This document shows positions 4,171 to 4,899 of a DNA stretch of 37,997 bases, piece after piece (the first letter of the stretch is position 1; each line of letters starts with the position of its first letter). The notes beneath the pieces are model-generated. The model was not told the DNA's origin, ran no database searches, and saw nothing but the letters and a program-made list of their open reading frames with translations. The position numbers and the translations under genes were made by a program. The stretch covers positions 1 to 37,997 of IMG/VR virus record IMGVR_UViG_3300042518_000947; one strand, written 5' to 3'. The stretch comes from a virus.

Positions 4171-4631
4171 GGCCACCGACTGTCGCGGTCCTCTGCGATG
4201 AACGCATCGAACCGCGCAGGGTTGACCCGCGGCCTGACTGTGACGGCGCTGCTGCATCCGAGCGAGACGCTCGACAGTGTGGCGCGCGGAGCCATGGCGG
4301 CTTTGACGAGGGCCGGATGGTTTGCGACAGGAACCGACGACGGGTCGATGCCACATCGGCTCAGGATGGCATTGCGCAACGCCGTCGCCATGCTGACCCC
4401 GTGTGCATCGGCCGCGGCGCGCAGCATGGGGACCCGGGATGCCGGCACGCTGATGCGCATGAGGACGAACCCTCCGGCGGACGTGAACGGCCGAGGCCAC
4501 GACTCGACCACGGATGCCCCGCGCCTGCGCACTCCGAGCACGTCAGCGCGCACGGACGGCCACGGGTGGCGGATCATCTGCGCGTGAGTTTCTGCGGGGA
4601 TGCGAATGTCAAGGCTTGTGTTAGTCGACAT
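4104..4631 (-). CDS. Ribbon-helix-helix-like DNA-binding protein
   Basis: A 175-residue protein, last gene of the leftward early operon. ATG 4631 is chosen, 11 bases inside the end of the Gly-X repeat gene. The frame is open further upstream through the repeat, but only as a Gly-Thr shadow. The segment from residue 54 ([20 protein letters not shown] onward) is a beta strand followed by two helices, as in CopG/Arc-type regulators. The C-terminal third is Ser/Arg/Pro-rich and may be disordered. The last 67 bases overlap, convergently, the receiver-like gene. A regulator or nucleoid-type role is inferred from the fold only. A plus-strand frame over the same region exists but looks less protein-like. 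Confidence 0.5.
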
Positions 4632-4899
4632 CCACGTCCCCGTCCCCGTCCCCGTCCCCGTCCGCGTCCCCGTCCCCGTCCCCGTGCCTGTCCCCGAACC
4701 CGTCCCCGTCCCCGGACCCGGACCCGAACCCGGACCCGGACCCGTTCCCGTCACCATACCCGGACCCGAACCCAGACCAGCACCCGAACCCGCCACCGCA
4801 CCCGTCCCCGTCCCCGAACCCATCCCCGTACCCTGACCCGTACCCGTACCCGTCCCCGTACCCGAGCACGTCATCGATGCTGACGGCCACGGCGCTCAC
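4621..4899 (-). CDS. Gly-X repeat protein (GYGDG-type low-complexity protein)
   Basis: A 92-residue protein. GTG 4899 overlaps the stop of the DUF6948-like gene in a classic GTGA junction, which fixes both start and frame. After a short unique head ([11 protein letters not shown]), residues 13-92 are an almost perfect alternation of Gly with Tyr, Asp, Ser or Phe, becoming Asp-rich at the end ([10 protein letters not shown]). The only breaks are around residues 34-40 ([10 protein letters not shown]) and a single RH. The expected product is disordered and very acidic, possibly metal-binding or phase-separating. It sits between a DUF6948-like gene and a ribbon-helix-helix gene in an early operon. 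Function is unknown. Glycine codons are nearly all GGG, so the DNA is a hexamer repeat. Confidence 0.6.
4635..4864. repeat. Imperfect hexanucleotide repeat (GGGNNC on minus strand)
   Basis: About 38 units of GGG-NNC on the minus strand (CCCGTC, CCGGAC, CCGTAC and relatives on the plus strand), coding Gly-X pairs. A six-base unit keeps the frame when copies are gained or lost. Strong G-on-one-strand skew with GGG every six bases could also favour G-quadruplex formation. Confidence 0.85.

Follow-up and report, generated by a model that had tools for sequence, protein, structure and literature searches.

The stretch of DNA analysed here (hereafter the window) is a virus record of 37,997 bases. 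Its strongest repeat, as identified by Tandem Repeats Finder, is a period-6 array at positions 4635-4864 that comprises 38.3 copies and scores 159. On the minus strand, positions 4621-4899 are open from a GTG codon, and about 80 residues of the encoded protein alternate Gly with a variable residue (X). An earlier note on this DNA had reported such a Gly-X repeat gene, and the reading frame and the array were both found at the place it named. The features of the region are as follows.

4104..4631, minus strand: next gene, 175 aa, sharing 11 bases with the end of the Gly-X gene and without a family match
4621..4908, minus strand: Gly-X gene, 95 aa from the GTG at 4908, or 92 aa from an alternative GTG at 4899
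4635..4864, minus strand: degenerate hexanucleotide tract with the unit GGG-NNC in about 38 copies, coding Gly-X (from Tandem Repeats Finder and composition)
4896..5189, minus strand: DUF6948 gene, 97 aa (Pfam PF22253, E=1.1e-11), predicted Sm/LSm-like fold; putative coupled partner of the Gly-X gene
4905..4908, minus strand: start overlap, a GTG within G|TGG, where TGG is the C-terminal Trp codon of DUF6948
5686..6576, minus strand: RecT-like ssDNA annealing protein (phrog_561, E=2.3e-35)
6573..7613, minus strand: RecE-like/YqaJ exonuclease (phrog_434, E=4.4e-49; YqaJ, E=8e-11)

Gly occupies 35 of the 40 alternate positions in the last 80 residues of the window protein, and the X residues in this part are 18 Asp, 7 Ser, 5 Tyr, 5 Phe, 2 Cys and one each of Gly, Asn and His. 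Nearly all variation in the tract is found at hexamer positions 4 and 5, which are the first two codon positions of X. The earlier note had the gene begin at 4899, in a GTGA overlap with the upstream gene. This is a possible start, but the gene probably begins at 4908 instead, because the GTG there sits at the offset from the upstream gene that most relatives share (-13, as described below). The description of the surroundings as an early operon fits, given that RecT-like, RecE/YqaJ-like and helix-turn-helix protein genes are located just upstream on the same strand. The same gene cluster also encodes a protein with a Myb-like DNA-binding domain (5241-5636, minus strand; Pfam PF00249, E=7.6e-6). 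The gene at 4104..4631 is probably carried on the same transcript as the Gly-X gene and is outside the conserved pair described below. A single weak relative of its protein was found, in a viral contig of 96.7 kb (L003), and the 10 kb retrieved from that contig contain no Gly-X tract. A second, short tandem array (GTCACGGTGA-like, with periods of 10, 21 and 31) is present at 9099-9178 inside the open reading frame 8754-9614. This region of the window has no DNA similarity to known phages.

The gene directly upstream of the tract is a member of Pfam DUF6948 (45.1 bits against a curated cut-off of 27). Of 50 relatives, 30 match phrog_18306; both families are catalogued without a function. The first three relatives retrieved from public records (from human faeces, a spring and the Chlorobiaceae phage CV-1-33) each have a Gly-X gene directly after DUF6948. 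Scans for DUF6948 then yielded 80 loci from viral contigs and 34 from bacterial and archaeal genome assemblies, the latter in metagenome-assembled genomes labelled Clostridia, Bacteroidales, Chlorobiaceae, Acidobacteria, Actinobacteria, Gracilibacteria and a Woesearchaeote, among others. In this set, which was not selected for repeats, 87 DUF6948 genes have at least 200 nt of downstream DNA, and a Gly-X tract of at least 12 aa lies directly downstream of 79 of them (84 when tracts of at least 6 aa are counted). As a control, Gly-X directly follows only 5 of 588 other open reading frames of at least 100 aa in the same viral loci (<1%), and two of these five exceptions are DUF6948 copies that had been left out as duplicates.

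The geometry of the junction is similarly regular. Among 99 coupled genes in the unselected set, the Gly-X gene starts before the end of its partner gene in 89, and in 69 it starts exactly 13 nt before the end of the partner stop codon. This -13 start falls inside the codon of the nearly invariant C-terminal Trp of DUF6948 (A/G|TGG), an arrangement that suggests translational coupling of the pair. The earlier note took the Gly-X frame to be the intended one, and this view is clearly borne out by same-frame homologues with a like start overlap in considerably more than 100 loci.

We also approached the association from the opposite direction. A DNA pattern for GYGDGSGYGDG that is blind to the partner gene recovered 120 viral loci, 99 of which include upstream DNA. 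In 83 of these 99, a DUF6948 gene ends within 300 nt of the tract, and it does so within 1.5 kb in two more. Eight of the 14 remaining loci carry a gene of a second family in the place of DUF6948, most of them with a like start overlap, so that about 93 of the 99 have a partner gene that is either DUF6948 or a divergent homologue. The second family is marked by the motif IVVLDRGWVYVG...NAxxIRxWGTTxGLGQL, and its alignment to the DUF6948 profile covers almost the full length (hhalign probability 92%, P=6e-7). A search for the second family gave 80 loci, and a Gly-X gene is directly downstream in 60 of the 62 distinct loci that have 200 nt of downstream DNA. The pairing therefore extends to two families that are kept separate in Pfam, and the Gly-X trait is not peculiar to the window phage. 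The earlier note had proposed the head of the short protein as the mark by which relatives might be recognized; the actual mark is the DUF6948 gene directly upstream, which that note had not identified.

The pair is present in named phages of Pectobacterium, Iodobacter, Vibrio and Chlorobiaceae, in gut phages and in a gonococcal prophage, and the phages that carry it come from many environments. The gonococcal example (L283, near position 1152544 of Neisseria gonorrhoeae NZ_CP119142.1, a chromosome listed as a plasmid in PLSDB) presumably resides in a prophage; X in its tract is mainly Asn, Ser, Asp and Tyr, and DUF6948 matches three places in this chromosome. In some loci DUF6948 occurs without a tract (L008, L220, L237 and L282). 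Multiple Gly-X genes also occur, either in tandem with the head NMGILDG repeated (L180, first 916 bases, minus strand) or as one Gly-X gene with another lying downstream of it (L139).

Despite a locus GC content that ranges from 27 to 73%, the composition of the tracts is narrowly confined. Over 5,668 units from all loci, X is Ser (35%), Tyr (31%) or Asp (24%), followed by Phe (2.7%), Asn (1.6%) and His (1.0%); the corresponding values for Ser, Tyr and Asp in the set not selected for repeats are 37, 28 and 23%, and the combined share of these three residues is 88-91%. Aromatic residues are present in all closed tracts and acidic residues in all but one, whereas the median basic fraction is zero. 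Strict alternation spans 40 to 110 residues, and nearly every Tyr of the Gly-X proteins sits in G-Y-G. The X residues appear to be under selection, because the single transitions that are likeliest from their codons (Tyr to His or Cys, Asp to Asn, Ser to Pro) are rare even though transitions at wobble positions are common in the tracts (about 30%). The neighbour order of X is mildly directional, with S-Y, Y-D and D-S favoured over the reverse (z of 3.6 to 6.3, for the Gly-X genes of loci L008-L087 and L208-L241). Codons within tracts are unusually uniform, such that TCC and TCT make up about 92% of Ser codons and TCG 0.2%. This uniformity is as expected from repeat turnover, although a nucleic-acid role could explain it too.

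Several assignments to known sequence types were considered and set aside. Pfam matches of the Gly-X stretches to TrAA12, Serglycin, RP1-2, KRTAP and CFAP143 are low-complexity matches. An SSB-like acidic C-terminal tip is not pronounced, the gain in Asp and Glu near the C-terminus being slight (mean +0.46 of 6, p=0.003). The nonapeptide of RTX calcium repeats places Gly and Asp an even distance apart, and the odd distance in Gly-X proteins differs from this spacing. Metal binding, which the earlier note had raised as one option, has no specific support.

The tract ends the protein in 94 closed reading frames, and in 31 (about a quarter) more than 40 additional residues come after it. These C-terminal stretches are of at least two unlike kinds. 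For the kind found in gut phages, an AlphaFold model of one relative (L055) has an N-terminal helix at residues 2-12, a tract at residues 15-47 with pLDDT below 50, and a confident C-terminal domain that has no fold match in the PDB by Foldseek and no match in Pfam. In one locus (L011:1293-2350), this domain is instead a free gene located between DUF6948 and two separate Gly-X genes, as after fission of the fused protein. This arrangement suggests that DUF6948, the gut-type domain and the Gly-X chain act together. A second kind of C-terminal domain (GATIAxWRSDxxGRACNGG...LHATxxPPKxxGxRWWIVALIGxV) occurs in L024, L119 and L291; the example from L024 has no Pfam match. The Gly-X tract itself is predicted to be intrinsically disordered, where the low AlphaFold2 confidence counts as an indication. 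The suggestion of the earlier note that the product is a disordered, acidic and aromatic chain is in keeping with the composition and with the low pLDDT over the tract of this relative.

Comparisons between closely related phages reveal how freely the tracts can change. The pair is present in all seven phages of the Ymer genus (PMC11445585) and in the Dickeya phage Setonix. The Gly-X genes of these phages range from 162 to 270 nt and differ in length only by multiples of six. The DUF6948 gene is identical in Ymer, Abuela and Amona, as are 2.4 kb of DNA upstream and 700 nt downstream, yet the Amona tract is 18 nt shorter than, and differently ordered from, those of Ymer and Abuela. Once the conserved head and the seven final units are set aside, the X orders of Ymer and Amona are no more alike than shuffled strings. 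Similarly, two Chlorobi phage loci (L006 and L034) whose DUF6948 genes are 96.7% identical in DNA have unlike tracts. The Ymer-genus genomes were assembled from Illumina reads with metaSPAdes (PMC11445585), and for this reason individual tracts could hold assembly errors. A text search of PMC11445585 for glycine gave no mention. The earlier note had anticipated in-frame length change between isolates, and the six-base steps among Pectobacterium phages with identical flanks match this expectation. Taken together, these patterns indicate that constraint acts on composition, alternation and pairing, and not on order or exact length.

The partner protein offers a structural clue. An AlphaFold2 model of the window DUF6948 protein, built with an alignment of 50 relatives, reached a pLDDT of 93.4 and a pTM of 0.84, and the best 50 PDB matches found by Foldseek are nearly all Sm/LSm proteins (probability up to 1.00, E of 0.007-0.09). 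The best 50 rows from VIA-align are all Sm/LSm or Sm-like proteins, with a best Z of 7.1 and an rmsd of 2.3 over 61 residues; this Z lies below the range in which a shared fold is certain, and a shared small beta-barrel may be merely a common arrangement. When compared with viral models, the protein matches other DUF6948 proteins first, with two annotated Sm-like proteins (from a cyanophage and an uncultured phage) ranked lower. A sequence search alone found no PDB match to DUF6948. A profile of 30 archaeal LSm proteins aligns weakly with DUF6948 strands 1-3, which correspond to the Sm1 region (hhalign probability 40%, P=2.9e-4), and none of 200 column-shuffled LSm profiles scored as well. From these models and profiles, we consider it likely that DUF6948 adopts an Sm/LSm-like fold.

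The genes found near the pair, among them the RecT-like and RecE-like genes of the window, support a nucleic-acid setting. In the Iodobacter phage phiPLPE the neighbourhood includes recE and bet, and in the Ymer genus it includes Erf and SSB. Elsewhere, RecT/Bet annealing, replication-initiation and helicase families recur in a tally of neighbours, although none is universal.

Given these observations, we tentatively favour, at somewhat short of an even chance, a module in which an Sm-like protein is translationally coupled with a disordered polymer of Tyr stickers and Gly spacers, and the two form multivalent assemblies early in infection. According to this model, the tract would be the coding sequence of the second gene in a conserved two-gene phage module, the first gene of which encodes DUF6948 or a divergent homologue, a putative small Sm/LSm-like protein. 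Since the second gene starts inside or just before the stop of the first, both proteins would probably be made together. The second product would be a disordered Gly-X polymer in which X is Ser, Tyr or Asp, sometimes fused to a folded C-terminal domain of one of at least two kinds. Tyr residues might serve as stickers on a backbone of Gly, Ser and Asp that is acidic and almost devoid of basic residues, yielding a soluble multivalent chain that acts through composition and valence rather than order. If the chain and its Sm-like partner associate physically, they could build an assembly or condensate in which nucleic acid or proteins are concentrated or sequestered during the early phase of infection, and the repeat would permit the chain to be lengthened, shortened or reshuffled in frame. 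Constraint on composition, alternation and pairing combined with freedom of order is what would be expected of a disordered polymer that acts by valence. Condensate formation and the trapping of a host protein, both of which the earlier note had mentioned, are possible activities of such a chain. We hold with a little more reserve a broader proposal: that a widespread phage module encodes an Sm-like protein translated together with a hypervariable polymer of Gly and Ser, Tyr or Asp, spelled in hexamers of a nearly three-letter code. Selection would act on the composition and alternation of this polymer only, and early in infection the polymer would build virus-encoded condensates or a combinatorial surface for binding.

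The main rival to multivalent assembly is a hypervariable binder or decoy, which we regard as unlikely. In this case the reshuffled Gly-X surface would bind or distract a host protein, perhaps one involved in defence, the Sm-like partner would present or stabilize it, and changes in order would be adaptive. Antibody CDR loops are rich in Tyr, Ser, Asp and Gly, the same few residues to which the tracts are limited, and both the early-gene context and the extreme change of order between phages with identical flanks (and between L006 and L034) are consistent with this explanation. However, almost all orders occur once only and none has been conserved, the pattern expected from drift under a composition constraint. 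Furthermore, there is no known host target, and no match to anti-phage defence systems was obtained with PADLOC at E<=0.1.

Less probable again is a silk-like material, wherein the Gly-X chain would form a gel or beta-sheet fibres whose X residues all lie on one face. Strict alternation over such long stretches speaks for this explanation, and Ser and Tyr are also X residues in fibroin, but a chain with about 24% Asp and almost no Ala, predicted by AlphaFold2 to be unstructured and located among early genes, is a poor fit. We give slightly less weight still to the proposal that the tract functions as nucleic acid and that the protein is a by-product. RNA or DNA composed of GGC-TCC/TAC/GAC hexamers might be bound by the Sm-like partner or act as a hotspot of recombination; the partner resembles RNA-binding proteins, codons within tracts are very uniform, and tracts recombine or slip readily. 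Against this, Ser, Tyr and Asp are kept across the full range of GC content with varied wobble bases (GGC, GGT, GGG and GGA), and nonsynonymous transitions are depleted. G-quadruplex formation, which the earlier note had put forward for the tract, is likewise not a shared property: the motif occurs in the window tract but in just 13 of 165 tracts overall.

Two further explanations can be largely dismissed. The ready expansion of repeats and the biased composition are consistent with a functionless slippage product tolerated after DUF6948, but it is very improbable that such a product would follow about 90% or more of the partners in very divergent phages and two partner families while keeping its frame, acquiring folded domains and restricting X. 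Least credible of all is translation in a Thr-Gly frame fused to the downstream gene (open reading frame 4104-4874), which is open in the window, since the repeat unit itself makes other frames open, and relatives of very different GC content retain the Gly-X frame and the partner overlap whereas the Thr-Gly reading exists in few. The Thr-Gly and Val-Pro open frames in other frames and on the opposite strand were accordingly rejected as genes, being an automatic result of the repeat unit.

If multivalent assembly by an Sm-like protein and a Gly-X polymer is the correct interpretation, phages may make condensate scaffolds of their own. Whatever the mechanism, hundreds of phage genes without assigned function gain a shared architecture, and a domain of unknown function becomes linked to a predicted Sm/LSm fold. 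The tracts also provide natural sets of disordered chains whose differences are almost confined to residue order and length, and the role of order in low-complexity proteins is thereby made directly testable in phages with identical flanks. In the open-access papers searched, we found none on DUF6948, no description of the Gly-X companion, the pairing, the second partner family or an Sm-like fold for DUF6948, and nothing relevant for GYGDG, GSGYG, or silk-like or hypervariable Gly repeats in phages.

The components of this module resemble known kinds, namely the Sm fold and low-complexity proteins, although the module as a whole matches none known to us. The predicted DUF6948 fold is the point of likeness to Sm/LSm proteins, and one of the VIA-align rows is 3by7, an Sm-like protein of uncultured origin. 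In contrast to Sm/LSm proteins, the DUF6948 model has a helix inserted between strands, and the low-complexity part is a separate, putatively coupled protein rather than a tail. Silk fibroin is a (GX)n polymer with Ser and Tyr among its X residues, and thus shares with the Gly-X chain the placement of Gly at every second position. Unlike fibroin, the phage chain is rich in Asp, has hardly any Ala, is encoded by an early gene and is predicted to be disordered. Comparable in likely behaviour are the low-complexity domains of FUS and hnRNP proteins and the linkers of SSB, which are Gly-rich disordered chains, the FUS type being built on G/S-Y-G/S. They appear to share with the Gly-X chain the character of a disordered polymer rich in Gly, Ser and Tyr. 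The Gly-X proteins depart from these chains in their strict dipeptide alternation, in the use of Asp in place of Gln or Arg, in having hardly any basic residues and in their viral origin. By this analogy, the resemblance to FUS and hnRNP domains and to SSB linkers would be one of function rather than of shared ancestry.
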